A DNA stretch of 64,000 nucleotides from a bacterium (GCA_018824305.1 JAHJGM010000040.1:1-64000); one strand, 5' to 3'. Shown: positions 19,351 to 55,303, counted from the first letter of the stretch. Numbers and translations: made by a program. Notes: generated by a model from the sequence alone, not told the origin.

Positions 19351-19372
19351 CTACATATTTAAAGGATTGATG

Positions 19373-29012: not shown

Positions 29013-31316
29013 ATGAGCTTTTTGTTTCAAGAGTTCCATGAGAGTTTAAAAGACCCGGATATCAAACTTGTGTCATTTGATCTTTTTGACACGCTGGTGT
29101 ACAGATATCTGTTTCATCCCTCGGATATCTTTTTAAAACTGCAAGAGACGGAGTCGGTACAAAGCTGCGGGTTAAGTCATTTTGCCGATAAACGCCAGTT
29201 CTTTGAAAACAGAGCGCGACAGATGAGAGACGACAAAGAGGATATATCGCTTTACGAAGTGTATAGCCATTTCGTTAAAGATGCAGCTGCCTTTGTAGAG
29301 AGTGAACTGCAGATCGAAGATCGATATATCTATGCAAATGCCCTCTTGGATGGGTGGATAGGTATGGCACATGCAGCGGGTAAACGCGTTGTCATTACAT
29401 CGGATTTTTATCTTAGTGCAGAAGAGTTGGAACAAATAGCACTGTATAAACTTCAAAACTCTCATCTCATTAGCAGAGTCTATGTTTCAGGGCAGGAGGG
29501 TGTCTTAAAAAGCACAGGCAATCTGTTTAAAAGAGTGATGGCCGAAGAGAGCGTGAAGCCCGAGCAGATCTTACATGTAGGCGATAAACATAAAAACGAC
29601 CATATCGCACCCAAAAATCTCGGTATCAAAACGATCTATACGGGACTCTCAGGCAGTATTCAAAAGGCATATGAAATAGAAAGGGCATTTTTAACGCAAA
29701 AACCGCATCTGCTTCAGGCTTCCCGCCAGCACGTGGCATCTCATAGCCCGTATCCAAAAGGCGCTAAAGAGAACATTTTTTATGAGATAGGCAGTTATGT
29801 CTTTGCTCCCGCACTCTATGCGTTTAGTTACTGGACGTTGGAGCTGTGTTTGGCGCGCGGCCTGACTCAGATAAACTGTCTGATGCGGGAGGGGCGTATC
29901 TTTAAAAAATCGCTGGAGAGTGTAAAAAACAGCGATAAACGTTTTGCAGATATTCAGATCAATCTTATCTATGCCTCAAGGGCATCGCTGTTTTTTCCGT
30001 ATCTGCATGATGACAAGATCGACGATGCCCATATGATCTATGGGGATATGAGCGTGGGCGAGTATTACAAGCTGTGCAGGATCAAACCAAGTTCTAATGA
30101 GGTTATAAAATATATAGATGAGGATCTAAGAAAGTCCAAAAACATTTTTACCGAAACACATGAGAGGGTCTATGACTTGGTGTTTTCTGATATCGAATCG
30201 AGAAAAGATGAGATAAAACAGGCTAGTCATACTCAGGCAGAGCTTTTTAGGGAACATCTCAAACAGCTTGACTATACAAAAGAGTCTATTTTATTGGATT
30301 TTGGCGGAAGCGGCAGTATGTTTGGCATCATCGACAAACTTTTAAAAGAGGAGGCTCCATCGACCTATATCCTCTTTTTTGAACAGAAAAAAGTCTTACA
30401 AAACAGTTTGAAAATAGAGTCGTTCTTTCCTTATCGGGACGAGTTCAAAAAAAGCTGCGACGCGATACTCACCTATGCGCCTATCATCGAAGCACTCTTT
30501 AACGCAGATGAGGGAACGACAGTGGCATTAAAGCGCTCCGGTTCTCTTGTCATCCCTGTTCTTGGGAGATCAAATAAGTCGTTTTTTGAGCAGTTTTTTG
30601 CATTTGATCGAGGTGTCTTGGAATTTATAGCGTATGTAAACCAAGATGAAAAACTGCACAAAACAGCTTCTGATGAGGAGCGTTTGAGTTATGCTCAGAT
30701 CATCCACAGACTCCTTGTCGCACCGACGAAGCAAGAAGCACAGACGCTTGGAACTCTGCCTTTTGAACAGGATGCAGAAGGTCTGAGACATGAGACTTTT
30801 TTAGATGAGATCTCACTTGCTTATCTAAAAAAAGAGGGCATAGAAAACTACTTTTTCAATCTCATAAAACACAATAACAGAAGTGCTTTAAAATGTTTCT
30901 GGCCGCACGGAGAGATCGCAAGACATGATGATACGCTTCTGGCAAAGATGCATAATCCGGAGTTTTTTGTCTCTCCTAATCATAACGATGTAAGCGACAT
31001 CATCAAACAGCTGAGAGAAAAAGAGATCTCTTCGCTTAGTATCTTTGGCGCGGGTACGTTTTTGGATGATCTGTTTTTGGAGATCGAAGAGCTTGGGATA
31101 AAGATCAATTTTATCGCAGACTCTAACGCAAAAAACAATCCTAGAAGAGTGTACGGCCATAATGTTCTTCATCCAAGCGAGTTGTTGGCGCACGGGGAAA
31201 AAATATTTGTCATCGCTTCGGGGAGTTTCTATAAGCAGATGAAAGAGCAGCTGCAGTTTTTAGCCAAAGAGTTTTCGCAGGAGATAGAGATCATAACAGT
31301 GAGAGATCATGAATAG
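29013..31316 (+). CDS. COG5610-type HAD-like protein with C-terminal Rossmann-like module
   Basis: 767 residues. N-terminal HAD fold (about 18-215): motif I SFDLFDTLV, motif II ITSDFYLS and motif IV-like HVGDKHKNDHIAPKNLG. The residue two after the presumed nucleophile D23 is Phe, not Asp, so phosphatase activity is not assured. The long middle part contains MREGRIFKKSLE and LLDFGGSGSM, features of the COG5610 group found in polysaccharide loci. The last 100 residues start SLSIFGAGTFLDD, the same extra module as in the flanking GT2 proteins. It is a paralogue of the gene at 37465-39792. AGGAG precedes the ATG. Confidence 0.8.
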   Translation: MSFLFQEFHESLKDPDIKLVSFDLFDTLVYRYLFHPSDIFLKLQETESVQSCGLSHFADKRQFFENRARQMRDDKEDISLYEVYSHFVKDAAAFVESELQIEDRYIYANALLDGWIGMAHAAGKRVVITSDFYLSAEELEQIALYKLQNSHLISRVYVSGQEGVLKSTGNLFKRVMAEESVKPEQILHVGDKHKNDHIAPKNLGIKTIYTGLSGSIQKAYEIERAFLTQKPHLLQASRQHVASHSPYPKGAKENIFYEIGSYVFAPALYAFSYWTLELCLARGLTQINCLMREGRIFKKSLESVKNSDKRFADIQINLIYASRASLFFPYLHDDKIDDAHMIYGDMSVGEYYKLCRIKPSSNEVIKYIDEDLRKSKNIFTETHERVYDLVFSDIESRKDEIKQASHTQAELFREHLKQLDYTKESILLDFGGSGSMFGIIDKLLKEEAPSTYILFFEQKKVLQNSLKIESFFPYRDEFKKSCDAILTYAPIIEALFNADEGTTVALKRSGSLVIPVLGRSNKSFFEQFFAFDRGVLEFIAYVNQDEKLHKTASDEERLSYAQIIHRLLVAPTKQEAQTLGTLPFEQDAEGLRHETFLDEISLAYLKKEGIENYFFNLIKHNNRSALKCFWPHGEIARHDDTLLAKMHNPEFFVSPNHNDVSDIIKQLREKEISSLSIFGAGTFLDDLFLEIEELGIKINFIADSNAKNNPRRVYGHNVLHPSELLAHGEKIFVIASGSFYKQMKEQLQFLAKEFSQEIEIITVRDHE

Positions 31317-32580
31317 AGTAAAAATATCGGTTATTATTCCCGTTTACAACGCTGAAATATTTTTGACAAGAGCCATTGACAGCGTGCTTGCATCTTCTAT
31401 GAGGGAGCTTGAGATCTTAGTGATCGATGATGCCTCACCGGGAAACTGCCAAGAGATAGTCGCAGGCTATAAAGAGGATCCTCGCGTAAGGTACATCAGA
31501 CATGAAAAAAACCTTGGGCTCTTTGCTGCAAGATGCACGGGCATAACCCATGCAAAGGGAGAGTACTTGGTGCACTTAGATCCCGATGACTGGATCATAG
31601 ATGATATTTATAGAAACGCCTACAGCCTAGCAACACGAAAGAGTCTTGATTTTGTACTTTTTAATGTCATTCAAGAGGATGAGAACGCCTACAGATGGAT
31701 AGAGGATGAGAATGTTTTAAAAGAGTGTCATAAAGGCAAGGATGTCATCGATCATATATTTGGGTCAAAATCAAAAGCCTGGATCTGGCATGTAAGCTGG
31801 AACAAGCTCATGAAGAGTGACAAAGTAAGAGAAGTGTTACACTATTTCAGGCAGTCGGATCATCTTAATATGTATGAAGACCTGCTTTGGTCTGTGGCGA
31901 TCTTCTCTCATCATTACAATTCGGATAAAGTAGGCATATTGGAGCAGGTGGGTCTTGTTTATTACCGCCATAGTGCATCCATAACAAAAAGTGTCGGGTA
32001 TGCATCGTATGCTAAGAAATATAATGATCTGAATTTTGTTTTAAAGAAGATAGAGAAAATTTTGAATGATTATAAAATTTTCTCTAAGTATCAAAAGGAT
32101 TTCTATAAGCTTTCCTGTTATGTGCTTGAGATGCATTCACCGTTGAAACAAAAAGTATCCGGTTTTTTCAACACTTTGAAATTGATGTTCTTACAAGGGC
32201 AATATAAGAGGGGCTGGCAAAATGTGTGTGAAGATTACAACGATATCAGTGAATCTGCAGAGATATTGCAAAAGAAAGTAGAACACTTGGGATTAGATGA
32301 AGTGGCGATCTTCGGCACTGGCGAGTTTGCCATCAAACTTAAAAAAGCGTTTGATGAGAACAATGTAGCAACACGCTTTTTTATCTCCAGCGATACGCTT
32401 TTTGTGGGTAAAAAGATCGATGGAGTCGATGTGGTCGATATTGAAGAAGCCATCACTAAATGTCAAAATAAATATATCTGTATCGCTTCAATCGGTTCAT
32501 TTGAGAAAATCGCACAGATGCTAAAAGAGCGTGGAAACGGTGAAAATATCACCTATATAACAATCAAATCAGGTGAGTGA
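31309..32580 (+). CDS. GT2 glycosyltransferase with C-terminal Rossmann-like module
   Basis: 423 residues. GT-A domain at the N-terminus (VSVIIPVYNA-type opening ISVIIPVYNAEIFL, VIDDASPGN, DxD-type HLDPDDW near residue 98). The C-terminal unit from about residue 330 begins EVAIFGTGEFAIKL and continues with a second half ending ITYITIKSGE, again the shared module. It is the last gene of the operon and its 3' end overlaps the convergent response regulator gene by 12 bases. Confidence 0.85.
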   Translation: MNRVKISVIIPVYNAEIFLTRAIDSVLASSMRELEILVIDDASPGNCQEIVAGYKEDPRVRYIRHEKNLGLFAARCTGITHAKGEYLVHLDPDDWIIDDIYRNAYSLATRKSLDFVLFNVIQEDENAYRWIEDENVLKECHKGKDVIDHIFGSKSKAWIWHVSWNKLMKSDKVREVLHYFRQSDHLNMYEDLLWSVAIFSHHYNSDKVGILEQVGLVYYRHSASITKSVGYASYAKKYNDLNFVLKKIEKILNDYKIFSKYQKDFYKLSCYVLEMHSPLKQKVSGFFNTLKLMFLQGQYKRGWQNVCEDYNDISESAEILQKKVEHLGLDEVAIFGTGEFAIKLKKAFDENNVATRFFISSDTLFVGKKIDGVDVVDIEEAITKCQNKYICIASIGSFEKIAQMLKERGNGENITYITIKSGE

Positions 32581-37464: not shown

Positions 37465-39792
37465 TCACAACTTTATTAATCCGTTATAGTGGTTGATGAT
37501 ATCAAATATTAGATCATTCTCTTTGGCATATTGAAGGAGTTTGTCCGTTATCTCGATGGAAAATGCGACACTCGAGATGATAACGGGAAAACAGTTCTTC
37601 TTATTGATGCTTTCTTTGAGGGATTTGACTTCAAAACCTTCTATCTTAAAGCTTTCGATCTCTGCTCTGCTGTCTATGAGAGAGAGTATCTCGATGTTTC
37701 TCTGTAAAAGAGGGTATCGTATCTTTTTAAAAAAATCTCCGGCACCGTAGATGTTTACTTTTTTGATCCTGTTCTCATCGAGGATATGCAAAATCTCCTC
37801 GATTGCAGAGTCGTTGACACTGTGTTCGACTATGTTTTTGACGTAGGGCAAGAACATCTCATCGGTTTGTGTTATGGCACCCTGTACCCAGTGAAGCTGC
37901 TCTTTTTTGTAGCCTATGTTTTTGCACAGCTGTGTGTAAAGAGGTTCGACTCCCTCTTTTTTTACAAGTTCGAGACTCTTTTTTGAAATAAGCGGGTAGG
38001 AATAAGAAGATCCTCTTCCCTCATCATAGATCAGCGCTCCCAAGCGGGTGGCTTCATCAAGGGTAGGAACCTCTATAAGCCTTGCTATCATCAGTGCCAG
38101 ACTTTCTCTGTCAAATCTGCTCTCTTTGTCATACATCTTTTTTGTAGCAAAAAATGCATCTATGCCTAAGTGCAGAGCCTCTTCTATCTCTTGCAGACCA
38201 TGCATATCGCCGTTAAATATTTTGGTAACGGGAACTATCTGCGTGCCGCTTTGTTTATAACTGAGTGTGGAGGTCGCAAACCCGTTTAGCAGTATCTCTA
38301 AAAACTCAGGAACTCTTCTGATAAGTTCGATAGCATATCTCGTCTTGTCGTTCATCGGTAAAAAAGAGAGCGCATGGGAGCTATTCATATACTCATATCC
38401 GCCGCTATGCATGTAAAAGAGCAGATATTGCTTAAAGTCGATGTCGCATGAACTGCCGATCTGTTTGAGTGATCTTCCGATACCGCCAAAATCTACAATG
38501 GCAGAGCCGTTTTTGACTCCCAGAGATTTTGCATATCGTGTGATGAGGCTTTTTTGCTTATTGATGTTTTCTTTTACTTCATCCAGTCTTGCAGAAAAAT
38601 CGTTTTTGAATATTTCCAGAAGAGAGTGTTCATCGACGTATATCGTATTGGCATCTTTACAGAGCGTTTTTTTATATTTTTTGAGGGTTTTATCCTTTAT
38701 CTCCAACATATACATATCGTAGAAATTTTCGATGCTGAACTCTTTATAGGTGTAAAAGTTGATGTTACTCTCTTTGAAGTTCTCAAAATCTATCGAGGGC
38801 AGAAGTGTTGATTTTCTTGATGCATAGATGAGATTGACTTCCTTATCGTCAAAAAGCGTCGTAAAATATCTCTGAAAGAGTTTGCCTTCTCGCATGACGA
38901 AATTTATCTGCTCTATATTTTGTTTGTCGCTCATATCATGAAGCCAGTGCGAAAACTCCCAAAGAAGAGGTGCAAAAAATGTGCTGCCCAGATCGAAGTA
39001 AAAGCGTTGCTCTGTTTTTTCAAAAGGGTTTAAAAGTGCCGAGAGGACTCTGATGTTGGCATTGGATTTAAAGTCGTTTTGGATATATCTTTTTTCAAAC
39101 TCCAAACTCTTTTTCAAACTCCCCTCTATATTGTAGTGGAGTGTATTGATCCCTTTTTCTTTGGCATTGTCCACATCGTTTTTTTTGTTGTCGCCGATAT
39201 GAAAAAGCTCTTTTGGCTTGATGCCGAGTTCCTCTAAGATGTGAGGATAGATCGTCCCTTTTGCTTTGCTTTTACCCAGCTCGCAGGAGATATATATTTT
39301 CTCTACATGTAAGGCATCAAACTTTGAAAGGAGAATCTTTTTGATGCTTTTGTGTGAGAGATAGGTGTCGGATATCAGTATGACTTTTTTTCCGTTTTTT
39401 ATAGCAGTTTTCGTCCAGCTCTCTACCTGCTTGTTGATGTAGATATTTTCTGTCTCTGTCTTTATCTCCAGATCCATCAGTCTCTTTTTTTTCTTCTCGG
39501 TTACAAAGAGCTGCTCGTAGATCTGTTCTAGTGTGATCTCATCAAGATTAGAGTGTTTTCTGCGTGCCTGAGTCTCCGCATTTTCTCGAAATTGTCTAAA
39601 AGTAGAGGGGGTGTCAAAGAGTTCTTTGACAAATTTTTTCTCACCCATGAGCGAGAAGATATCTTTGGGAACGGCTGTTTTTCTAAAAGCCAAAGTCTCG
39701 AAGATATCAAAAGAGACGACCTTTATCTGTGGGTCGTTTATGGCAGCGATAAACTCTTTTTCCAGACGGCTTTCTTGAAACATCTTTTTCAT
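37465..39792 (-). CDS. COG5610-type HAD-like protein (second copy)
   Basis: 775 residues and colinear with the protein at 29013-31316: motif I SFDIFETLAFR, motif II LISDTYLSHKS, HIGDNKKNDVDNAKEKG, the middle marker NFVMREGKLFQRYF and VDFGGIGRSL, and a C-terminal unit from about residue 675 beginning KVNIYGAGDFFKK. As in its paralogue, the position two after the presumed nucleophile is Phe. It is the last gene of the eleven-gene pse operon and overlaps the previous gene by four bases. The two copies end two oppositely oriented glycan operons. Confidence 0.8.
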   Translation of the reverse strand: MKKMFQESRLEKEFIAAINDPQIKVVSFDIFETLAFRKTAVPKDIFSLMGEKKFVKELFDTPSTFRQFRENAETQARRKHSNLDEITLEQIYEQLFVTEKKKKRLMDLEIKTETENIYINKQVESWTKTAIKNGKKVILISDTYLSHKSIKKILLSKFDALHVEKIYISCELGKSKAKGTIYPHILEELGIKPKELFHIGDNKKNDVDNAKEKGINTLHYNIEGSLKKSLEFEKRYIQNDFKSNANIRVLSALLNPFEKTEQRFYFDLGSTFFAPLLWEFSHWLHDMSDKQNIEQINFVMREGKLFQRYFTTLFDDKEVNLIYASRKSTLLPSIDFENFKESNINFYTYKEFSIENFYDMYMLEIKDKTLKKYKKTLCKDANTIYVDEHSLLEIFKNDFSARLDEVKENINKQKSLITRYAKSLGVKNGSAIVDFGGIGRSLKQIGSSCDIDFKQYLLFYMHSGGYEYMNSSHALSFLPMNDKTRYAIELIRRVPEFLEILLNGFATSTLSYKQSGTQIVPVTKIFNGDMHGLQEIEEALHLGIDAFFATKKMYDKESRFDRESLALMIARLIEVPTLDEATRLGALIYDEGRGSSYSYPLISKKSLELVKKEGVEPLYTQLCKNIGYKKEQLHWVQGAITQTDEMFLPYVKNIVEHSVNDSAIEEILHILDENRIKKVNIYGAGDFFKKIRYPLLQRNIEILSLIDSRAEIESFKIEGFEVKSLKESINKKNCFPVIISSVAFSIEITDKLLQYAKENDLIFDIINHYNGLIKL
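39303..39312. repeat. CTACATGTAA, near copy of the palindrome
   Basis: One mismatch to TTACATGTAA, read in the HAD-like gene as Leu-His-Val. The other eight near copies are at 4945, 8640, 14655, 22521, 29571, 43061, 62998 and 63532. Confidence 0.7.
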
Positions 39793-41198
39793 GATACTCT
39801 CTCTTGTATTGCTTTACATGCAGGTTTGTGCGCGGTGTCAAAAAAGAAGTTTTTTACATGTGCGCGTTTTTCATACATCTCATCACTCCCTTGCAGTGCC
39901 CCGATCAGCTCATTTTGTGTCTTGACAAAACAAGAGGGCGAGTACTCAAAATAATCAAATAAAAACCCGTCTCTATGGCTCATATAATCCTCATAGTCGT
40001 AAATAAACGAGATAACTGGACGATCAAGCAGCAAAAAATCATAGATGACGGATGAATAATCACTGACTAAAACATCGACATATTTAAGGATCGGATAAAT
40101 GTCGCTTTGTGTCTCGTAAAAGATGATACGATCAAGGGCTTTTGGCTTTTGTATCTTGACGAAGGGGTGAAACTTCACGATGAAATAGGCATCCATCTCT
40201 TTCATCTGCTCGTTTAAAAGTTCAAAATCAAGCGGCGGCGTGTTGTGCATCTCATTTTCACGGTAGGTCGGCATGTAGAGTATCTTCTTGCCTTGGGCGT
40301 TTTTGACCAGATCGTAGATCCCCATATCGCAAAATATCAGATCATCTTTCTCCTCATCTTTAAAAAAGATATCAAGACGCGGATACCCGAGATTTAAAAA
40401 CTCTTTTGCTTTGAACACGTTTTGGAAGTTCGTCTCATTGGTCCACTCCGAAGTGGAGACAAAATAGTCGTACTCGATGTTGGACATGTCGTTTATCCTC
40501 TTCAATCCCACTCCGTGCCATAACTGGAGCGTTTTTTGTGAGGGAGAAAGACAGTCTAAATAGTTGTAAAGGATATGGTCTAAAAAGATGTTCTTAGCAA
40601 GCGCAATATAAAAATGCGAAAGCCAGCTTCCAAGTCTAGCAGATGGCAGATGATGCTCTTTTAGAACTTTTAACTGCTCTTCGTTATCGCTTAGCAAGAT
40701 GGCGTTTTGAGCGTTTTTTACATAATGAAGATAAAGATGTTTGATGTTTGCATCCACGTAACCTTCGCCTATAAAAACATTTTTAGTGCGCTTGTATTTT
40801 ACTCTGTCTAAAAAAGCGGAGAGGTGTTTTAAAAACAGTTTTTTGAGTTTTGTATTGAGATTCAAAAAAGAGCGTTGCAAAGTTTTTAAGAGTATCTGTT
40901 TTCTGTCATAGACCGCATAGCCCTCGGCTGTTTTTTCTACTTGATAGAGCTTACTTACATGTAAAGATTTTTTATAGGTGTTATAGATACTCTGGAAATG
41001 GTTTGGAGAGTAGATGAAGATGGCATCATACTTTTTGTCAGCCATCTCTTCTACTTTAAACACTCCCTCGGCTGATATATTTTTATCTATGAAACCAAGC
41101 ACAGTGATGCCGTTTTCTTCGAGAAAGAGTCTGAGATTTTTGGTTATAGGCGAGTAGGGGGAGATAAAGACCTTTTTGCCCGTAAACTCTTTCATCAT
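39789..41198 (-). CDS. CDP-glycerol/ribitol phosphotransferase-like protein (TagF family)
   Basis: 469 residues. An N-terminal 80-residue unit (KKVFISPYSPITKNL to IFIYSPNHFQSIYN) resembles the small Rossmann-like module of neighbouring proteins. The rest matches Glyphos_transf: LWHGVGLKRIND, FVSTSEW, LNLGYPRLDIFF, ILYMPTYREN, FIVKFHP and VLVSDYSSVIYDFLLLDRPV. Family members move polyol-phosphate from a CDP-polyol to a glycan or build teichoic-acid-like chains. The gene just upstream encodes a likely CDP-ribitol synthase, so ribitol-phosphate is the probable donor group. Four-base overlaps on both sides. It carries one exact TTACATGTAA. Confidence 0.85.
   Translation of the reverse strand: MMKEFTGKKVFISPYSPITKNLRLFLEENGITVLGFIDKNISAEGVFKVEEMADKKYDAIFIYSPNHFQSIYNTYKKSLHVSKLYQVEKTAEGYAVYDRKQILLKTLQRSFLNLNTKLKKLFLKHLSAFLDRVKYKRTKNVFIGEGYVDANIKHLYLHYVKNAQNAILLSDNEEQLKVLKEHHLPSARLGSWLSHFYIALAKNIFLDHILYNYLDCLSPSQKTLQLWHGVGLKRINDMSNIEYDYFVSTSEWTNETNFQNVFKAKEFLNLGYPRLDIFFKDEEKDDLIFCDMGIYDLVKNAQGKKILYMPTYRENEMHNTPPLDFELLNEQMKEMDAYFIVKFHPFVKIQKPKALDRIIFYETQSDIYPILKYVDVLVSDYSSVIYDFLLLDRPVISFIYDYEDYMSHRDGFLFDYFEYSPSCFVKTQNELIGALQGSDEMYEKRAHVKNFFFDTAHKPACKAIQERVS
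40955..40964. repeat. TTACATGTAA palindrome in the TagF-like gene
   Basis: Exact copy, read as Leu-His-Val on the minus strand. Confidence 0.8.
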
Positions 41199-42547
41199 AC
41201 CCCTCTTTTGATGTCTATGATCTGACCTGAGATGTTTTTACCAAGCAGCTGGATCGTTTTTTTCGCTACCTCGGATGAACTCAAAAGGGTGTCCTCATCC
41301 TCATAGCCGAAGTTTTTCACTCTCATCGGGGTGAGTGTGCGCGCGGGATTGATACAGTTGATGCGGATATCAAACTCGCTCCACTCCTCGTCCAAAGCCT
41401 GCGTGAGGTTGACGATGGCCGCTTTTGATGCAGAGTAGAGGCTGTAGTTCGCTCTGCCTCTTGTGTAGGAACTGGATGTAAAAAACAGAAGCATCCCGTG
41501 AGATTTTTGTAGGTACGCTAATGACGCTCTGGCGATGTTTACACTCCCTTTGAAGTTTGTGTCGATGATCTCGTCTATCTGCTCCTGTGTATATTCATGA
41601 AGCGGACTTTTTTCTAATACTCCCGTGGTATTGATGACATAGTCTATCTGCGCATCGATGCTTTGAAAAGCCTCTTGAACGCTTTGATACTTTCTCACGT
41701 CACAGCCTAAAGACCTGCTAAACTCAAAGACTCTGCAGCCGTTTTGTTTCAAAAGTTCGGCAATATCTTTACCTATGCCGCTGCTTGCACCGAAGATGAC
41801 GACGGTTTTATCTTTGAACTCTAAAATATCATCATCTTCGATCGTCGAAGTTTTGAGCTGAAGCAGTTTTTCGGCTAAAAGAAGGTCCTCTTTGTGAGTG
41901 ATCTTGATGTTTGCACTCTCGCCGTTTACCACATAGACTTTTTCGTCTGGAATGTATTTGACGACCATACCGCAGTCATCGGTAAACTCGATCTTTTCAC
42001 TCGAAGACCTTGCGATGTCGTGAGCCTGTTTAATGGTGGTGAGTTTAAAAGCCTGAGGCGTCTGCCCGCGTCTGAGCTCGGCACGTTTTGGGATGGAGTC
42101 TATGGTGTCGTGTGCATCGATTTTTATGATGGTATCGGCACTCTCTATCGCCACATCGACTGCGTTGTACTGTTCAAGCGCTTTGATGGAGTTGTTGATG
42201 ATCTCCTGAGAGACAAAAGGCCGCACGCCGTCGTGAAATATCAGGTTTACGTCATCTTCGCTTTCATAGGCTTTGATGGCGTTGTAGCTTGAATCATACC
42301 GTTCCTCTCCGCCGCTGATGATCTTTGTGACCTTGGCAAAACCGTTTTCGTCGATGAGGGCTTGGATATCCTCTTTGTAATCGAAGTTTATGACCAGACA
42401 TATCTCATCGATGAGTCTGTTTTTTTCAAACTCTGCGATCGTGTACTCGATGATCTTTTTACCGCCAAGACGGATATACTGTTTTGGCGTCTCGCTGCCA
42501 AATCTTTTACCGCTTCCAGCGGCAAGGATGACGGCTACGTTTTTCAT
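41195..42547 (-). CDS. Bifunctional CDP-ribitol synthase (cytidylyltransferase-reductase)
   Basis: 450 residues in two domains. Residues 1-230 are an IspD/TarI-type cytidylyltransferase (LAAGSGKRFG, TPKQY, FHDGVRPFV, RRGQTPQAF). Residues about 245-450 are a short-chain dehydrogenase (VVIFGASSGIGKD, NTTGV, catalytic YSASK). This fused layout is that of Haemophilus Bcs1/Acs1, where the reductase makes ribitol-5-phosphate from ribulose-5-phosphate and the transferase activates it with CTP. A stand-alone IspD is less likely because Campylobacterota usually carry an IspDF fusion. Its next gene encodes a CDP-polyol phosphotransferase. Confidence 0.8.
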   Translation of the reverse strand: MKNVAVILAAGSGKRFGSETPKQYIRLGGKKIIEYTIAEFEKNRLIDEICLVINFDYKEDIQALIDENGFAKVTKIISGGEERYDSSYNAIKAYESEDDVNLIFHDGVRPFVSQEIINNSIKALEQYNAVDVAIESADTIIKIDAHDTIDSIPKRAELRRGQTPQAFKLTTIKQAHDIARSSSEKIEFTDDCGMVVKYIPDEKVYVVNGESANIKITHKEDLLLAEKLLQLKTSTIEDDDILEFKDKTVVIFGASSGIGKDIAELLKQNGCRVFEFSRSLGCDVRKYQSVQEAFQSIDAQIDYVINTTGVLEKSPLHEYTQEQIDEIIDTNFKGSVNIARASLAYLQKSHGMLLFFTSSSYTRGRANYSLYSASKAAIVNLTQALDEEWSEFDIRINCINPARTLTPMRVKNFGYEDEDTLLSSSEVAKKTIQLLGKNISGQIIDIKRGV

Positions 42548-43557
42548 AAGGTCATATCCATTTGAAGAGGAGTTCCCGCTTTGATGTCGTATGATGCTCT
42601 TCTGCCCAAAAGGTCTTCGTAATGTTTTGGATGCAGACCGTTTCCTGGGCGGATGCTTTTGATGTTTTCTTTACTAAAACTTTCGCCCTTTTTGATGTCG
42701 CAGCTGACATAGAGGCTTCTTGCGTAGGCTTTTGACTTACCGTCATATTTGACGGAGCCAAGCATCTTTTCGACGTTGCGCACGCTTGTTACCATCTCTT
42801 TTAGTTGTGTCGGCGAGAGTGAGAATGCACCGTCTGGCGTTTCTATGTTCTCATCGGGTGTGAAATGTTTTTCTATCACACGAGCACCCAAAGCGACCGA
42901 AGCGATGACGGCGTCATTTCCCATGCTGTGGTCGGAGAGTCCCACTTCCGTGCCAAAACGCTCTTTCATATCATTGATGGTGAGCAGGTTCATGGATTCG
43001 GGTTTTGCAGGGTAGGCGCTTGTGCATTTTAAAAGTACGATCTGCTCATTGCCCGCATTCTTACATGTAGCGATGGCAAGCTCGATATCCTCTATCTCCG
43101 CGACACCCGTGGAGATGATGATGGGCTTGCCTTTGGAAGCGGCATATTTGATAAGAGGGATATCGGTGATCTCAAAAGAGGCTATTTTGTACGCAGGTAC
43201 GTCGATCCCCTCCAAAACATCCACAGCTTCCAGATCAAAAGGGGATGAAAACAGCAAGATCCCAAGTTCGTCGGCATACTCTTTTAAGGGTTTGTGCCAC
43301 TCATAAGGCATACATGCACGCTTGTAAAGATCATAAAGGTACTCATTCTGCCACAGATCACCCGCTTTAAACTTCTCCTCTTTGATGTCGAGTGTCAAAG
43401 AATCGGGAGTATAGGTCTGAAGCTTTATAGCGTCGCATCCCGCTTCATGAGCGATCAGGACGGCTTTTTTCGCAAGCGAAAAATCCTGATTATGGTTTGC
43501 AGAGAGTTCGGCGATGATGAAGACTTTTTTAGAAGTGTCGTGAGTACCTATGATCAT
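42544..43557 (-). CDS. pseI: Pseudaminic acid synthase
   Basis: NeuB-family synthase condensing phosphoenolpyruvate with 2,4-diacetamido-2,4,6-trideoxy-L-altrose to give pseudaminic acid. The TIM barrel shows IAELSANHNQD, IKLQTYTPDSLT, LFSSPFD, ISTGVAEIEDIELAI and GLSDHSMG, and the C-terminal SAF antifreeze-like domain starts near residue 275 (SLYVSCDIKKGE to GTPLQMD). The surrounding pseG, pseH, pseF and the distant pseB and pseC identify it as PseI rather than a sialic or legionaminic acid synthase. Confidence 0.93.
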   Translation of the reverse strand: MIIGTHDTSKKVFIIAELSANHNQDFSLAKKAVLIAHEAGCDAIKLQTYTPDSLTLDIKEEKFKAGDLWQNEYLYDLYKRACMPYEWHKPLKEYADELGILLFSSPFDLEAVDVLEGIDVPAYKIASFEITDIPLIKYAASKGKPIIISTGVAEIEDIELAIATCKNAGNEQIVLLKCTSAYPAKPESMNLLTINDMKERFGTEVGLSDHSMGNDAVIASVALGARVIEKHFTPDENIETPDGAFSLSPTQLKEMVTSVRNVEKMLGSVKYDGKSKAYARSLYVSCDIKKGESFSKENIKSIRPGNGLHPKHYEDLLGRRASYDIKAGTPLQMDMTL

Positions 43558-44075
43558 CTTTTCTCATTTCTTAGTAGTTTTGATATTTTAGCATCTGCTT
43601 TTTTATAATCTTCATACGTGAGCAGATAACTTTTATATGTGTCGAATGTCTCGATCTCTTTGTAGCCCAAAGAGAGGTTAAAACGCACGGCTCTTGGATT
43701 GTCTGGCATTATCTTACATGTAAGGGCGGCAAACTTTTTCTGATTGAAAAGATAGTCGTGAAAAAGAGTCACTATTTTGTATGGCGTGAGCGAGTTCTGT
43801 CTGCTCTCATCATAGATATAAAACCCTGTTTCTATCGTCTCATCACGCTTATTAAACCAGATAAGACCCACACTCTCATCCCCTACATGTATGACAAAAT
43901 ACTCATCCTCTTTTTCCTGCAGGGAGATAAACCAGTTTAACTGCTGCTCGGGAGTGATATATTCTTGGTTGAGCGCGTAGCGTTTTACTTTATCGCTGTT
44001 GCGCCAGTTTCTCACCATCTCGATCTCTTGAATTCCAAGCGGCGTGAGCGTGATGTCAAAGCCCTTAAGCGTCAA
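43554..44075 (-). CDS. pseH: PseH N-acetyltransferase
   Basis: GNAT-fold acetyltransferase, 173 aa. It N-acetylates UDP-4-amino-4,6-dideoxy-N-acetyl-L-altrosamine, the PseC product. The opening ITLTPLGIQEIEMVRNWRNS and the RFNLSLGYKE C-terminal GNAT motif fit PseH proteins. It overlaps the ACP gene upstream by 11 bases and pseI by four. One exact and one near TTACATGTAA occur in it. Confidence 0.9.
   Translation of the reverse strand: MTLKGFDITLTPLGIQEIEMVRNWRNSDKVKRYALNQEYITPEQQLNWFISLQEKEDEYFVIHVGDESVGLIWFNKRDETIETGFYIYDESRQNSLTPYKIVTLFHDYLFNQKKFAALTCKIMPDNPRAVRFNLSLGYKEIETFDTYKSYLLTYEDYKKADAKISKLLRNEKR
43714..43723. repeat. TTACATGTAA palindrome in pseH
   Basis: Exact copy, read on the minus strand as Leu-Thr-Cys-Lys. 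Confidence 0.8.
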
Positions 44076-44289
44076 AGCCGGCCTTTTGCAAAATATCTTT
44101 TATGCTTTGACAGTTTTCAAGCTCATCTATCTCTACAGATGCGCCGATCTCATCAAAAACACTCAGTGCGCCGAGCATCGCAAGGGAATCCCATTCGGGC
44201 ACGTCACAAAGCATCTCATCTACGTTTAACTGGCGGTCTAACTGTACTTCCTCGGAAAGTCGGATCAAAAACTCCTCTTGTGTCATCAT
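44065..44289 (-). CDS. Acyl carrier protein (first of two)
   Basis: 74-residue carrier protein with the phosphopantetheine site at Ser35 in EWDSLAMLG. Acidic helices fit the ACP fold. It lies between the KASIII-like and PseH genes and overlaps both, so it is made with them. Paired with the other ACP it corresponds to AcpP2/AcpP3-like genes of the C. jejuni flagellin modification locus. Confidence 0.9.
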   Translation of the reverse strand: MMTQEEFLIRLSEEVQLDRQLNVDEMLCDVPEWDSLAMLGALSVFDEIGASVEIDELENCQSIKDILQKAGFDA

Positions 44290-45359
44290 ATCTCCTTTTT
44301 GTAAAGCTGCGTTTTGGGTGCATAGATGTTATCTGTCTGGATGACCGCTCCGCCCCAGCTCAGCCCGATGCCAAATCCCGCTATGGCAATGGTGAGTTTT
44401 TTGGAGCTGAACTCTTCACTTAAAAAACCGTTGATAGTCCCCGGTATGCTTGCTGCGTTTTGGTTGCCGTAGATCTGTCCCGTTTCAAGGGGGACTTTTT
44501 CCTTTTCCACTTTCAGACGTGAGGCGATGGTCTTTAGGATGTATGGATTTGCCTGATGCAGCACGAAATAGTCTATCTCATCATTTGCTTTTCCCGCAAG
44601 CTCCACCACTTCAGCTATGAGCGGTGGTACGGTTTTGATGGCGAAGTTAAACACCTCTTTGCCGTCCATGAACAGGTCTTCATCTCTGCGAATCCCGCCG
44701 TCTTCGCGCTCTTTTGGCACTAATGTCTCAGCAGTCGTTGGAGTTCTTGCTCCGCCTGCGGGGACGATGAGATGTCTGTATCCGCTACCGTCGCTGTATA
44801 GCGAGAAGAAGCTGCGCGGCGAATCTTTTTGCTCGATGATGATGGCACTTCCCGCATCCCCCATAAGCGGAGTAAATATCTTGTCACGCTCACCCGAAAA
44901 GTAACTGTTTACATCCCCCACGCAGAGCAGGACTTTTTTCATCCCGCTGTTGACATAGCTAAAAGCCGTGAAAAGCCCGTAGATAAACCCGCTGCATCCA
45001 AGGTTGATGTCAAATGCCCCGCAGCTTTTTGGCAGACCCAGACGGTCTTGCATGATGATGGCAGTGGAGGGCGCTTTATAATCAGGACTCTGCGTGACAA
45101 AGAGCAGCGCTTCTATCTCCTCTTTTTTGATGTCAGTATTGGCAAAGATATCTTCGGCACTTTGAACACACAGATCACTTGCACACACACCCTCATCTGC
45201 GATGTATCGGGTCTTTAGCCCTATGCTTCTTTGGAGTCTTGCAAAGCCCTCATCGTCAAATCCGAAGCGCTCTTTTTCATCTTCGAGGTTTATGATATTG
45301 TTGCCAACAGTCGTCGCCATCGCCGTGACAGCGATATTAGCAAAACTAATTTGACTCAT
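44286..45359 (-). CDS. 3-oxoacyl-ACP synthase III-like condensing enzyme
   Basis: 357-residue FabH-type ketosynthase with catalytic C122 (INLGCSGFIYG), H268 (VLHQANPY) and N299 (YGNQNAAS). It would condense an acyl-CoA or acyl-ACP starter with an extender on ACP. It is not the housekeeping FabH by context: it sits between two small ACP genes and an FkbH-like gene inside the Pse operon, as fabH2 does in C. jejuni. The product is unknown; an acyl decoration of a nonulosonate is a reasonable guess. Confidence 0.88.
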   Translation of the reverse strand: MSQISFANIAVTAMATTVGNNIINLEDEKERFGFDDEGFARLQRSIGLKTRYIADEGVCASDLCVQSAEDIFANTDIKKEEIEALLFVTQSPDYKAPSTAIIMQDRLGLPKSCGAFDINLGCSGFIYGLFTAFSYVNSGMKKVLLCVGDVNSYFSGERDKIFTPLMGDAGSAIIIEQKDSPRSFFSLYSDGSGYRHLIVPAGGARTPTTAETLVPKEREDGGIRRDEDLFMDGKEVFNFAIKTVPPLIAEVVELAGKANDEIDYFVLHQANPYILKTIASRLKVEKEKVPLETGQIYGNQNAASIPGTINGFLSEEFSSKKLTIAIAGFGIGLSWGGAVIQTDNIYAPKTQLYKKEI

Positions 45360-45630
45360 CGGCTATCCTTTGGCTGAGGTATTTTTCTAGGGTCGCAAGA
45401 GTCTTAAAAGGTGTTTTTTTAGCATCCATACTCTCTTCGCTTGCAACGGCGATGTAGCTGCCAGTGGCATCTTCCAGCGAGGATTCAAGCTCTAGTATCA
45501 GATCAAGCGTGCCAAGTGAATCTAGCAGTTCAAAAAGCGGAGTCTCATCGTCGATGCTGTTTAGTTCATCTATTTTCAGATCTTTGTTTATATTTTTGAT
45601 AGCTTCTAAAATAATCTCTCTAAGATTCAT
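45346..45630 (-). CDS. Acyl carrier protein (second of two)
   Basis: 94-residue carrier-like protein. The attachment serine is probably S38 in LLDSLGTLDLI, and the fold is an acidic helix bundle. The C-terminal half is longer and less typical than in AcpP. It overlaps FkbH-like by 11 bases and the ketosynthase by 14. Confidence 0.85.
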   Translation of the reverse strand: MNLREIILEAIKNINKDLKIDELNSIDDETPLFELLDSLGTLDLILELESSLEDATGSYIAVASEESMDAKKTPFKTLATLEKYLSQRIADESN

Positions 45631-47176
45631 AATTTACCTTTATACTTTTATTGATATCGACAAAATCTGCGAATTTATAATGCTTACATGCCCCGTTTTC
45701 GACTAGTTTAAAACCGTTTGTCTCATAAAAGTTTTCCACCAATGAGTTTTTGTCCGTCTTGAGGTAGCTTGCCGTGAGATTTTGATGTTTATGTGTTATA
45801 AAATTTAAAACGCTCTCTTCTATCCCTCTGCCTAAAACTCTGCAGCTCATCAAGAAGGTGTCGATCTCATCCTCTTTGACGATGACCACTCCCACAAGCC
45901 CCATATCTCCAAACTTGTCCTTGACGCTGAAATCATAAACGAAACTTTTTTGCATAAGCTCTTTTATCTGTGAAAGCTCATATCTTTTGGTTGTGAGATT
46001 AAACTGGTTAGTCTTGTTTGTTAGTTGTGTTATACGCTCTATATGCTCCAAGTAGTTACATCTGACGGTTATCTCGATCTCTAGCGAAGCGATGAAGTCA
46101 TCTTTGCTCTGCAAGGTAGAACTGAGGTTCAAACGCTCTTTTTCATCCCTGTAAAGCGCCGTTTTTTTGGCATCTTCATCGCTTACATGTAAAGTCTTTA
46201 GTGCGGTAATGTTTTTGAGCGTCTCGATGTTTTCCAAAGGGTTTGCAGGATTCATCTTGTAGCACTCTATGCCCAGACGCTGGCGCATCTCTTCTATCTC
46301 CGCATTTGAATCATCTACGAAGATGATGCCTGTTTTGGTGAGTTTCAGCTCTTCCAATATACTGCTTAGGTTTTCACTCTTGGAGTTCCAGTCGACTGCG
46401 CGTGCTACAAAATCATCCAGACTAAGAGGCATACTTTTTTTGGCAAAGACTTCATCCACTGCACTCTCGTCATTCTTACTCAGCAGGATGAGGATGATCC
46501 CGCTGTTTTTGAGTTCTAAGAGATACTCTTGAAATCTTTTGTAGACGATGCCCGGATAGTTATTGTCGATCTTTAAACCCTCCAAGCCGTCCTCTCCCAC
46601 GATTCCGCCCCAAAGCGTGTTGTCTGCATCCACGGCGATCGCTTTGATGCGCGGCTGGGTAAAGAGAGAGATGAGTTCTTCTATCTTCGCGCTTAAAAGT
46701 TCAGTGGCGCTTTTTGTAAAGGGTGTCTGAAAGAGATAGCGGTTTTTTTCATTGATGAGGTTTTTTGTTCCGTGCTCTTTACAAAGTGCATAAAAATCCA
46801 AAACTGCAAGATCGTTTATCTCGTTTTGCAGAGATGCGATCTTACCGTTGAGCGTGATGAGTTGTAACTCTTTGCTTACATGTAAGGGTGTAAATATTTC
46901 ATTAAACTCTTCATTGACCGTGTTGATGATGATCTTTGAAGCGTTGTTCATGCGAAAATGGATCAGGGCATTTTTGAGAAGTGAAAAACTCTCGTCGTAG
47001 TTTGTGGCAAAAAAGCCGGCATCAAGAAGCAGGACTAAAACATCCTCCTCCACCTTTGTATAAAGAGTGCCGATGATCGTATCAAGCGGATAATGGGTGA
47101 TGGAGTGATCTTTTAAGAAGCGTTCAAAGGGCTTTGTGATGGTGTTTGACAAAAAAGCGATACTATTTATACCCAT
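45620..47176 (-). CDS. FkbH-like HAD-IIIC phosphatase/acyl-ACP enzyme
   Basis: 518 residues. The central HAD-IIIC domain begins IKAIAVDADNTLWGG with D183 and D185, followed by LLSKND and GIIFVDDSNAEIEEMR. A GNAT-like C-terminal domain runs from about 365 to 500 (DKFGDMGLVGVVIV to YLKTDKNSLVENFYETNGF). FkbH proteins load a three-carbon glyceryl unit from 1,3-bisphosphoglycerate onto an ACP. Its companions here are two ACPs and a ketosynthase, so a short ACP-bound chain is probably made. Two exact TTACATGTAA copies lie in this gene, both read as Leu-His-Val. Confidence 0.88.
   Translation of the reverse strand: MGINSIAFLSNTITKPFERFLKDHSITHYPLDTIIGTLYTKVEEDVLVLLLDAGFFATNYDESFSLLKNALIHFRMNNASKIIINTVNEEFNEIFTPLHVSKELQLITLNGKIASLQNEINDLAVLDFYALCKEHGTKNLINEKNRYLFQTPFTKSATELLSAKIEELISLFTQPRIKAIAVDADNTLWGGIVGEDGLEGLKIDNNYPGIVYKRFQEYLLELKNSGIILILLSKNDESAVDEVFAKKSMPLSLDDFVARAVDWNSKSENLSSILEELKLTKTGIIFVDDSNAEIEEMRQRLGIECYKMNPANPLENIETLKNITALKTLHVSDEDAKKTALYRDEKERLNLSSTLQSKDDFIASLEIEITVRCNYLEHIERITQLTNKTNQFNLTTKRYELSQIKELMQKSFVYDFSVKDKFGDMGLVGVVIVKEDEIDTFLMSCRVLGRGIEESVLNFITHKHQNLTASYLKTDKNSLVENFYETNGFKLVENGACKHYKFADFVDINKSIKVNYES
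46183..46192. repeat. TTACATGTAA palindrome in the FkbH-like gene
   Basis: Exact copy, read as Leu-His-Val. Confidence 0.8.
46876..46885. repeat. TTACATGTAA palindrome in the FkbH-like gene
   Basis: Exact copy, extended to CTTACATGTAAG, read as Leu-His-Val. Confidence 0.8.
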
Positions 47177-48140
47177 CGATTATCTCCTTTGCCACACCGT
47201 TTTTACCAAAGCTGTATTTGCTTAGAACTCTTTTTATTTTGTGAGGTCGGTATTGTACAAAATTAAGAGCCGTTTTTAAAGATGCGAGAGTAAAGTTCTC
47301 AATCACATTTTTAAGGTTTTGTCTTTTGAGTATATCGACAGTTTGTGCCTGATTTGAAGCGCATTTGATGGCGATGAAGGGTTTTTGCAGAGCAAAGGTC
47401 TCCAAAAGCGAAGTGCTTGCACTGGTGATGATAAGATCGTACTTTTTCATCAAAGCAGCCATATCTTCCGCATTGACGATAAGTCCGTTGTCGGCGACTT
47501 TGAGATAGGAGAGTTTCGGGTTCGCCGAGGTCGTCACGATGTTTACATGTAAACTCTTTTCAATGCTCACAAGATATTTTTTTATGCGTAGTGAGAGATT
47601 TTGCGGATCACTGCCACCGAGCGTGATGAGCACCTTTTTATTCTTGAGATTCTCAAGCGGAGCAAAGCCGTTTTTGTGGGAGAGAAAATTCTCTTTTAGA
47701 AGCGTGTAACGGCTTCCTGCTAGGATTTTCGTGTTTTTGAGATAGGCGTAATCCTCATCTTTGGCAATAAAAGAGTGGTTCAAGACGATGTTTGCAGAGT
47801 GCTCTTTGAACTCATCGTCAAATACCAAAACATCGCAAAACGCTTGTACTTTTGCCTCACATGCAGGGTCGATGCCGTAGTGGTCGATGATGACAAGGAC
47901 GGGTTTTGTCTCTTGCACGATTTTGACAAACTCAGCGCAATCCGACCCGTTTAAAATTCGATGCTCAAACCCATTTTTCTCTATCAGACGGTTTTGGTTT
48001 CCTTTGAACTCCTGCGTGACATAGGTAATACTAAACTCATTTTTCAGGCCGTTTGCAAGCAGCAGTGTACGCATGAGATGACCAAGACCGATGGTCGAGG
48101 ATGAGTCCATTCTAATGAGTATGTTTTTTTTGTTCGACAT
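47163..48140 (-). CDS. pseG: PseG UDP-sugar hydrolase
   Basis: Removes UDP from UDP-2,4-diacetamido-2,4,6-trideoxy-L-altrose before PseI. It shows the PseG signature IRMDSSSTIGLGHLMRTLLLA near residue 9, DHYGIDP, VLITLGGSDPQNLSLRI and LIITSASTSLLETFALQKP. The GT-B-like fold and 325-residue length are as expected. It overlaps pseF by 29 bases and the FkbH-like gene by 14, so the operon is tightly coupled. Confidence 0.93.
   Translation of the reverse strand: MSNKKNILIRMDSSSTIGLGHLMRTLLLANGLKNEFSITYVTQEFKGNQNRLIEKNGFEHRILNGSDCAEFVKIVQETKPVLVIIDHYGIDPACEAKVQAFCDVLVFDDEFKEHSANIVLNHSFIAKDEDYAYLKNTKILAGSRYTLLKENFLSHKNGFAPLENLKNKKVLITLGGSDPQNLSLRIKKYLVSIEKSLHVNIVTTSANPKLSYLKVADNGLIVNAEDMAALMKKYDLIITSASTSLLETFALQKPFIAIKCASNQAQTVDILKRQNLKNVIENFTLASLKTALNFVQYRPHKIKRVLSKYSFGKNGVAKEIIDGYK
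47543..47552. repeat. TTACATGTAA palindrome in pseG
   Basis: Exact copy extended to the 14-base palindrome GTTTACATGTAAAC, read as Leu-His-Val. Confidence 0.8.
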
Positions 48141-48834
48141 GCTTGTTTATCTCGTAGATATATGGGTTTTGCTCCAAAGTCTCTATCAGCTTTTCATAGC
48201 TAAAATCGGTTCTGCACTCCAGTTTGTCATAAAGCTCCTGTATCGCTTTGTAGTCGTCTGCTTCATCGAGTGTGAGGCGGTATTTTGAGTGGTCTGCTTT
48301 GTTTTTGTAGGAGTCGGTCGTATAGTTTGCTTTGATGTAAGGGGTCACATGTTCTTTTTCGTATGCGGTATTTGCATGTACATAGGCATCTTTGAGAAGT
48401 TTGAATGAGAACACTTCGGTGTCCAGACCGCGGGGAAAGCCGCTTTCCTGACAGGCGCAGACATATTGGGCCTCGCTGCTTTTATAAAACTCTATCGTCT
48501 CTTTTATGACCTGCGCGTCAATGAGCGGACAGTCGCTTGTGCATCTTATGATGATGGTCTCATCATCCGCACCGAACTTGAGCGCGCTGTGGTAGTAGCG
48601 GGATAAGACATCATCCGTGTCTCCCTCCAAATAGCTTACATGTAAGCGCTTGCAAAGATCGACTATCGGCGTCTGTGAGCCGTCGTCCGTAGTCGCGATG
48701 ACGATGTTTTCTTTGAACTTGCCAAGACGCTCCAGCATCACTTCTAGCACGGTTTTACCGCACAGCGGAAGTGTCACTTTTGCCGGAAGTCTGGTGCTTG
48801 TCATGCGGGCTTGAATGATGATCTTTAAATTCAT
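48112..48834 (-). CDS. pseF: SpsF-type cytidylyltransferase, probable PseF
   Basis: 240-residue nucleotidyltransferase opening IIIQARMTSTRLPAKV, which is the SpsF version of the CMP-sugar synthase family (CMP-NeuAc synthetases open with IPARGGSKR instead). Later segments LSRYYHSALKFGADDETIIIRCTSDCPLID and GLDTEVFSFKLL agree. By context it is the only candidate for CMP activation of pseudaminic acid. It is first in the eleven-gene operon. No Shine-Dalgarno sequence precedes its ATG, and the predicted transcription start falls on that ATG, so the message may be leaderless. Confidence 0.82.
   Translation of the reverse strand: MNLKIIIQARMTSTRLPAKVTLPLCGKTVLEVMLERLGKFKENIVIATTDDGSQTPIVDLCKRLHVSYLEGDTDDVLSRYYHSALKFGADDETIIIRCTSDCPLIDAQVIKETIEFYKSSEAQYVCACQESGFPRGLDTEVFSFKLLKDAYVHANTAYEKEHVTPYIKANYTTDSYKNKADHSKYRLTLDEADDYKAIQELYDKLECRTDFSYEKLIETLEQNPYIYEINKHVEQKKHTH
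48636..48645. repeat. TTACATGTAA palindrome in pseF
   Basis: Exact copy extended to the 14-base palindrome GCTTACATGTAAGC, read as Leu-His-Val. Confidence 0.8.
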
Positions 48835-51644: not shown

Positions 51645-51708
51645 CGTTTGAGTTGAGAAATATTTGAGCCGCAGGGGTCAAATATTTCTCTCCAATGATT
51701 TGTTATGT
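51639..51708 (-). other. attC recombination site of the SIR2 cassette
   Basis: On the minus strand: R'' ACATAAC, then AAATCATTGGAGAG, arms GAGAAATATTTGA and TCAAATATTTCTC, then AACTCAAACGTTGGGC ending in the R' box GTTGGGC (GTTRRRY). The L'/R' end closely matches classical attC ends of the AACTCAAGCGTTAGR type. It begins 20 bases after the SIR2-like stop. Its R'' is the exact complement of GTTATGT at 52873-52867, the start of that cassette. Confidence 0.88.
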
Positions 51709-52872
51709 ATTGACTATGCATTGCAAAATCACTCATCACAATAAATGTTATCTTGAATATATTTCTTTAAAGGATATTCTATACCACAATATTCTACATT
51801 TATCTTATTATCTATATCATTAATCATCATTTTATACTTTTCTAAAACTTTATCTTTATTCTCGATATTAATTACTTGGATTTCCAAGTTTTTATTTTTC
51901 TGAATAGCTGATTCTAGTAAATAGATCATTGAAAGATCTGTTTGGGGAAATGAAAAGCCAACAATGATTATTTTATTTGATGATGATAATTGATCTAATG
52001 CTTGTGTCCATAGCATACGTATTTGTTCATTTGAATAATAGACAGATTTATCAAGTGTTGGAGGAATTATTTTCCCACCTGAGTTTGAATACTCATTTTC
52101 AATAGAACCATGTAATTTAATCATTTTGGGAACACTATAACTATCAAATGTTTTTTTTATTTTATAGTTATACTCTTTTTTTGGAGGATTATTATCCCAT
52201 CGGTGACCAATTAATTTTTCAAATTCTTTGTTAATTATTTCAGGTTCTGTATCTTCATAAAAACTTCTCCGAACGCGGATTTGTTCATCAATTTTTCTTC
52301 CATTAATAACAGTAGTTGGAATTTGAAATCTTATAATATTTTCATCTTCTTTAAGGATTTTATTTTTATCATTTTTATCCTCAAAATAGATTTCAAACCC
52401 ACAATATTCATAACTTTTCTCTTGATTGTTTTTTCCGCTAATTTCCTCTAATAGAGTATCGTAATTTAAAGTGATTATATTGCATTTTTCATATGAGATT
52501 TGTTTAATAAAATCTATGTATTCTTCATCAATATTTTCATTTTTTACATTACTAATAACAATTACTAATAAATCCTCTATTGCTTTATATAATGCTAAAT
52601 CAATATATTTATTAATCTCCGTTTTCCATGGCCAATTTACACTTAAAAAAGATAAAAGTTTTTCTATATCAGTTTTGCATTCATTTGGTAAAGAATTATA
52701 GTGCTTTAAGATAGGAGAATCTGAATATTTATCTTGGAATATTGTAAGAACTTGATCTGTTAATTCAGAGAGAATTGGATATTGATTATTTATTTCTTTT
52801 GAAAAACCAGCTCCAAAAATATAAGTTTCACTCATAAAAAATCCTCTTTTTTGAATACTTTTTTGTACATAA
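51645..52872 (-). mobile_element. Integron gene cassette A (SIR2-like gene plus attC)
   Basis: Cassette from the T after the crossover G at 52873 to the G of GTTGGGC at 51645. The gene begins 37 bases inside. Its DNA is strikingly AT-rich compared with cassette B and with the chromosome on both sides, consistent with a separate origin. Confidence 0.82.
51729..52835 (-). CDS. SIR2-like NADase-type protein (defence)
   Basis: 368-residue protein of the SIR2-like group seen in antiphage systems. Segments: GAGFSKE at 8-14 (nucleotide loop), TLNYDTLLE with N124, KLHGSIE with H242, and VGFSFPQTD near 292-300 closing the NAD site. Such domains hydrolyse NAD+ to abort phage infection, usually together with a sensor. 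No extra effector or sensor domain is seen in the middle insertion (about 135-235), which is Lys/Asp/Asn-rich. Low GC points to recent transfer. It is the only gene in cassette A. Confidence 0.83.
   Translation of the reverse strand: MSETYIFGAGFSKEINNQYPILSELTDQVLTIFQDKYSDSPILKHYNSLPNECKTDIEKLLSFLSVNWPWKTEINKYIDLALYKAIEDLLVIVISNVKNENIDEEYIDFIKQISYEKCNIITLNYDTLLEEISGKNNQEKSYEYCGFEIYFEDKNDKNKILKEDENIIRFQIPTTVINGRKIDEQIRVRRSFYEDTEPEIINKEFEKLIGHRWDNNPPKKEYNYKIKKTFDSYSVPKMIKLHGSIENEYSNSGGKIIPPTLDKSVYYSNEQIRMLWTQALDQLSSSNKIIIVGFSFPQTDLSMIYLLESAIQKNKNLEIQVINIENKDKVLEKYKMMINDIDNKINVEYCGIEYPLKKYIQDNIYCDE

Positions 52873-53132: not shown

Positions 53133-55303
<2,171 letters not shown>

Follow-up and report, generated by a model that had tools for sequence, protein, structure and literature searches.

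We analyzed a 64,000-nucleotide stretch of bacterial DNA (GCA_018824305.1 JAHJGM010000040.1:1-64000; hereafter the window), whose minus strand carries one operon running from a CMP-nonulosonate synthetase gene (48834-48112) to a gene (39792-37465) for a combined HAD phosphatase and ribofuranosyltransferase (HAD/gPRT). The gene order is CMP-nonulosonate synthetase, pseG, FkbH, an acyl carrier protein (ACP)-like gene, ketosynthase III, a small ACP-like gene, pseH-like, pseI, a fused cytidylyltransferase-reductase, a TagF-family transferase and HAD/gPRT. The subject of this report is the three-gene cassette that follows pseI:

41195-42547, minus strand: Bcs1-type fusion of an IspD-like cytidylyltransferase and a short-chain dehydrogenase/reductase (SDR), 450 aa (PF01128 + PF00106)
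39789-41198, minus strand: TagF-family polyol-phosphate transferase, ribitol type, 469 aa (PF04464, 6.3e-49; HGVGLK)
37465-39792, minus strand: HAD phosphatase plus phosphoribosyl pyrophosphate (PRPP)-dependent ribofuranosyltransferase (CrpP-CriT / PRP-gPRT type), 775 aa (phmmer, profile and fold)

The original prediction had placed the fusion and the TagF-type gene directly after pseI with four-base overlaps, and both genes are indeed found at 42547-41195 and 41198-39789, linked by ATGA overlaps at 42544-42547 (pseI to fusion) and 41195-41198 (fusion to TagF-family gene). Its inventory of the cassette, correct for these two, missed the third gene, which a further ATGA overlap at 39789-39792 joins to the TagF-family gene. 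The proposed Campylobacterota origin is backed by kinship, the same family including Sulfurimonas sp. STC_122.

The fusion has the Bcs1/Acs1-type architecture, with an N-terminal IspD-like cytidylyltransferase (PF01128, 5.5e-50, residues 4-230) and a C-terminal SDR (adh_short, PF00106, 1.4e-34, residues 280-411). Comparison of 13 relatives revealed conservation of the nucleotidyltransferase GxG-R motif and K22, and of the SDR GxxxGIG and Y371xxxK375 motifs; S277 is invariant and R278 nearly so, from which we infer an SDR of the NADPH type. The protein is a predicted ribulose-5-phosphate reductase/CDP-ribitol synthase. It barely exceeds the NCBIfam model for D-ribitol-5-phosphate cytidylyltransferase (NF001183; 167.3, cut-off 166) and also exceeds the IspD model TIGR00453 (189.2, cut-off 181.3). 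The latter score would fit an ordinary isoprenoid cytidylyltransferase of the methylerythritol phosphate pathway, fused and located near glycan genes by chance, a reading that we regard as highly improbable given the SDR domain, the polyol-phosphate transferase next door, the absence of the fusion from nearly all relatives, and a second IspD match that a genome search placed within a 392-aa frame on contig C31; on the strength of this second match, a housekeeping IspD role was rejected. The match to both models, together with a reductase stereochemistry that the sequence does not reveal, could also accommodate another CDP-pentitol, such as CDP-arabinitol, or another CDP-polyol being transferred onto the flagellin glycan. 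We consider this improbable, as it is opposed by the Bcs1-like fused architecture and, in the neighboring transferase, by a ribitol-type pocket glycine and by Bcs3 and TarL as structural relatives.

That transferase has the PF04464 GT-B fold with both catalytic histidines, H228 of the HGVGLK motif (H228, G231, K233) and H344, each of which is invariant. Its AlphaFold model (pLDDT 90.6) has CDP-ribitol-bound TarL, TagF and Bcs3 as its top PDB fold matches, and in the alignment its HGVGLK matches Bcs3 residue for residue. In the polyol pocket, ribitol-phosphate transferases carry a glycine (Gly99 in Bcs3) and glycerol-phosphate transferases a proline (P447 of TagF) (PMC10299916); the window enzyme has the glycine (HGxG). 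We checked this Gly/Pro rule on TagF-like genes located <=200 bp from either a fusion or a glycerol-3-phosphate cytidylyltransferase (GCT), and found glycine in 20/22 genes adjoining a fusion and proline in 5/5 adjoining a GCT (Fisher p = 2.6e-4, related genes treated as independent). One pse operon, at locus L043, holds both pairs: its fusion adjoins an HGVG enzyme, its GCT (TIGR01518, 181.4 bits, cut-off 165.4) an HGIP enzyme. In the tree, the pse-linked TagF-like enzymes form an 11-row set (support 99/99), inside which Gly and Pro types are interleaved and the window Gly enzyme pairs with the L043 Pro enzyme (support 94/82); 10 of the 11 members of this clade come from pse-linked loci. Because the two types interleave, the pocket residue apparently changed within the pse-linked clade along with the activating enzyme, with which it covaries in the loci tested. 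The HGVGLK motif and this covariation independently support ribitol specificity of the transferase and, with the fused architecture of its neighbor, the CDP-ribitol pathway that had been proposed. A glycerol-phosphate reading of the window transferase was rejected, its neighbor being the fusion, no GCT being seen beside it and its pocket residue being glycine. Viral contigs searched with the TagF-like protein yielded no relative.

The third protein comprises a HAD phosphatase domain followed by a gPRT fold, and ends in a C-terminal Rossmann-like tail. A phmmer search matched it to residues 385-833 of Haemophilus influenzae b (Hib) Bcs3 (9e-13) and to 7SHG, a ribofuranosyltransferase from T. 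composti (1e-8); a profile from eight relatives reached the same proteins at 9e-34 and 5e-28, and they were also the top Foldseek matches (4e-22 and 4e-19) of its AlphaFold model (pLDDT 86). Invariant in the eight relatives are D29 (HAD nucleophile region), R301-E302 (R-E-G), S325-R326 (A-S-R), D434-F-G and G439. Counted with the fusion and the TagF-like enzyme, this protein gives the trio an equivalent for each catalytic activity found in the Hib capsule machine (Bcs1 + Bcs3: CroT, CrpP, CriT), namely a CDP-ribitol synthase fusion, an HGVGLK ribitol-phosphate transferase, a HAD phosphatase and a PRPP ribosyltransferase. It differs from that machine in consisting of separate polypeptides, in lying in a pseudaminic acid (Pse)/flagellin operon of a genome in which no PF02563 match was found, and in an acidic pair that is E/D instead of D/E. 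A split form is known from Escherichia coli K18, where CroT is apart from CrpP-CriT (PMC10299916), and the trio, divided in the same way, resembles a split Hib-type ribosyl/ribitol-phosphate machine.

Together, these data make it probable that the products of this trio act in the cytoplasm as a cassette adding ribitol-phosphate, and probably ribofuranose, to the Pse glycan of flagellin. The SDR half of the fusion would reduce ribulose-5-phosphate to ribitol-5-phosphate, and the IspD half would use CTP to turn this into CDP-ribitol. From CDP-ribitol, the TagF-like enzyme would transfer ribitol-5-phosphate to a glycan hydroxyl, forming a phosphodiester, and the HAD/gPRT protein would transfer ribose-5-phosphate from PRPP and then remove the 5-phosphate, such that the ribofuranosyltransferase predicts an extra +132 Da on the glycan. 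Maf would link Pse to flagellin Ser/Thr, with decoration preceding export. In this scheme we infer the substrate stereochemistry, the acceptor, the step order, the chain length and the presence of the product on flagellin.

The acceptor is suggested by the surroundings. The region is a flagellin glycosylation island, in which pse genes, maf and flagellin genes occur together:

17630-19123, plus strand: flagellin 1, predicted acceptor protein (PF00669/PF00700)
19367-20881, plus strand: flagellin 2, predicted acceptor protein (PF00669/PF00700)
20976-24467, plus strand: Maf, nonulosonate-to-flagellin transferase (PF01973, 1.7e-41; the only PF01973 match of the genome)
29013-31316, plus strand: second HAD plus ribofuranosyltransferase-like protein (28% identical to 37465-39792; 7SHG at 1.3e-5)
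42544-43557, minus strand: pseI, pseudaminic acid synthase (TIGR03586, 466 bits, cut-off 340)
43554-44075, minus strand: pseH-like GNAT acetyltransferase (TIGR03585, 59.5 bits, under the cut-off of 93.1)
44065-44286, minus strand: small ACP-like open reading frame, 73 aa (putative, from translation and operon position)
44286-45359, minus strand: beta-ketoacyl-ACP synthase III-like (PF08541/PF08545)
45346-45630, minus strand: ACP-like open reading frame (no Pfam match at threshold; putative, from sequence and position)
45620-47176, minus strand: FkbH-domain protein (TIGR01686, 255 bits, cut-off 146.65)
47163-48140, minus strand: pseG (TIGR03590, 195.8 bits, cut-off 153.55)
48112-48834, minus strand: CMP-nonulosonate synthetase occupying the pseF place (PF02348, 1.6e-28)
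53133-54335, minus strand: pseC (TIGR03588, 458.5 bits, cut-off 423.5)
54275-55282, minus strand: pseB (TIGR03589, 551.4 bits, cut-off 407.75)
57630-55933, minus strand: fliD, after pseC/pseB

The original prediction had left the choice between a flagellin glycan and a surface polymer open. A separate surface polymer or lipopolysaccharide decoration, carrying ribitol-phosphate and ribose and merely sharing an operon with Pse synthesis, is an unlikely alternative. Pse also occurs in surface glycans of some bacteria, and for many fusion relatives the locus contains no pse operon; that of L041, for instance, has a Wzy-family polymerase. Moreover, every characterized Bcs3-type system makes capsule (PMC10299916). 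Against this, the clade of the TagF-like protein is drawn almost entirely from pse-linked loci, and the cassette sits within an island of flagellins, maf and fliD, a pattern repeated in related genomes, whose operons place it next to maf, flagellin or fliD. Among the capsule export genes expected for a group 2 ABC-transporter capsule, the exporter family PF02563 (Poly_export; OPX/Wza/KpsD family) was not found in the genome, which is 99.7% complete, other export genes not having been searched; the same genome has one PF04464 gene and one maf. Flagellin is favored over a surface polymer because of the island content, the single Maf and PF04464 genes, the missing PF02563 match and the similar arrangement of related operons, and a teichoic-acid-like ribitol-phosphate decoration of the flagellum is probable.

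Several points weigh against flagellin decoration by this trio. The lack of a PF02563 match leaves room for an exporter of another kind. Two TagF-like genes adjoining a fusion (L136 and L150) do not have the glycine, the Fisher test counts kin genes as independent, and the kinship of the fusion with H. influenzae Bcs1 draws on architecture and literature. In Bcs3, D680 and E818 of CriT position the PRPP ribose and are conserved among the homologs of that study (PMC10299916), whereas the window protein has the pair exchanged (E302/D434), as does 7SHG. Finally, relatives of the ribofuranosyltransferase occur in pse operons that have no TagF gene, adjoining UDP-galactopyranose mutase, so that it need not act together with ribitol-phosphate transfer.

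The fusion is present in 15/397 Campylobacterota genomes and lies in a pse operon in 4 of these 15, the window genome counted, which bears out the earlier description of such a setting as unusual. Elsewhere, it occurs commonly in Bacteroidota, in loci that lack pse operons; the enzyme itself is ordinary, and the unusual part is its setting. Pse operons of three other genera also contain the ribitol cassette, namely L043, with maf and flagellins, L044 (Aliarcobacter vitoriensis), which likewise has a HAD/gPRT gene, and L045 (Sulfurimonas sp.), where fliD is present. Glycerol cassettes of Campylobacterota pse operons (L043, L098, L099, L100) share the operon slot and the TagF-like clade; they differ in having a GCT and an HGIP enzyme, and would use CDP-glycerol instead of CDP-ribitol. 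In the same genus, L106 (L106:9698-20000) has an operon 72-90% identical through pseI, with a tail of UDP-galactopyranose mutase, GT2 genes and a HAD/gPRT gene. Judged from these comparisons, the operon tail acts as a cassette that can be exchanged. Neither GC nor GC3 marked the cassette genes as foreign. On a gammaproteobacterial contig (L131:1-4931), a fusion occurs with an FkbH-like gene and with a TagF-like enzyme that shares 41% identity with that of the window, suggesting that the cassette has moved across phyla.

A third cassette type lies near pse genes at L101:8777-14317, L102:8470-14923 and L103:5882-10858, where TagF-like enzymes with HGIPLE or HGITIE have as neighbors a PhnW-like aminotransferase (scoring below its cut-off), a nucleoside triphosphate transferase and methyltransferases. 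A phosphonate pathway was not adopted for these loci despite the PhnW-like aminotransferase, nucleotidyltransferase and methyltransferases, no phosphoenolpyruvate mutase being present among the genes scanned; by analogy, they perhaps provide an amino head group, as in Clostridioides difficile type A. If ribitol-phosphate and ribose were added alternately, as by Bcs3, the product could be a short teichoic-acid-like ribosyl-ribitol-phosphate polymer on flagellin, primed on Pse, and Campylobacterota would then swap nucleotidyltransferase/TagF cassettes (ribitol, glycerol, perhaps amino) as a charged glycan tip; we hold this extended picture to be doubtful.

Other parts of the island were also noted. 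For the CMP-nonulosonate synthetase (48112-48834), no TIGR03584 (PseF type) match was found in the NCBIfam model search, unlike related operons of the L044 type, which have a TIGR03584-type PseF. Within the pse operon (44065-47176, minus strand), FkbH, the two ACP-like frames and ketosynthase III adjoin the pseH-like gene that scores below its family cut-off, and the set suggests that the nonulosonate receives an acyl group built on ACP. On the plus strand, by maf (24464-27792), are genes for a WecF-like transferase, a DegT aminotransferase, a hexapeptide acyltransferase and a methyltransferase, which suggests that the flagellin glycan contains an acylamino-dideoxyhexose; three of the four have relatives in L105 (48-76% identity), which also has a HAD/gPRT gene. 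The same strand encodes two GT2 enzymes and the second HAD/gPRT-like protein. A small Rossmann-like stretch (IYGAG/IFGAG...IDS type) occurs at one end of several among the proteins 37465-39792, 29013-31316, 31309-32580 and 39789-41198. OLD-like AAA ATPase/TOPRIM and SIR2-like proteins (49639-52835, minus strand), resembling anti-phage defense, split the pse set into two parts.

Comparable chemistry has been described elsewhere. The C. difficile type A flagellin glycan locus (CD0240-CD0244) likewise pairs a TagF-like enzyme with a nucleotidyltransferase for a proposed phosphodiester-linked group; in the proposed route, CD0244 uses CDP-threonine to place phospho-threonine on flagellin GlcNAc (PMC10714395). 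The locus differs from the window, where ribitol-phosphate is predicted on a Pse-based glycan, in both head group and acceptor, and it has no ribosyltransferase. Ribitol biosynthesis genes were reported in silico in two strains with the enterobacterial flagellin glycosylation island type 12, in another phylum, and the parts of that account available to us give no mechanism, transferase, or Pse or ribosyltransferase link (PMC4875605). PRPP ribosyltransfer is known from the C. jejuni capsule (Cj1432; PMC12096443). The ribofuranosyltransferases known from Klebsiella, from T. composti (7SHG) and from C. jejuni (Cj1432) work in two steps, PRPP transfer and HAD dephosphorylation, as predicted for the third cassette protein, whose E/D pair is that of 7SHG. 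The Klebsiella and C. jejuni enzymes serve O-antigen or capsule synthesis, whereas that of the window sits in a flagellin operon by a predicted ribitol-phosphate transferase. A search of the openly licensed literature turned up no measurement of ribitol-phosphate on any flagellin and nothing on Pse in Sulfurimonas flagellin.

If the proposed function is correct, chemistry otherwise associated with capsules and teichoic acids would sit on a protein filament, and one operon slot would swap matched pairs of activating enzyme and transferase, with the single-residue Gly/Pro rule making the head group predictable from sequence.

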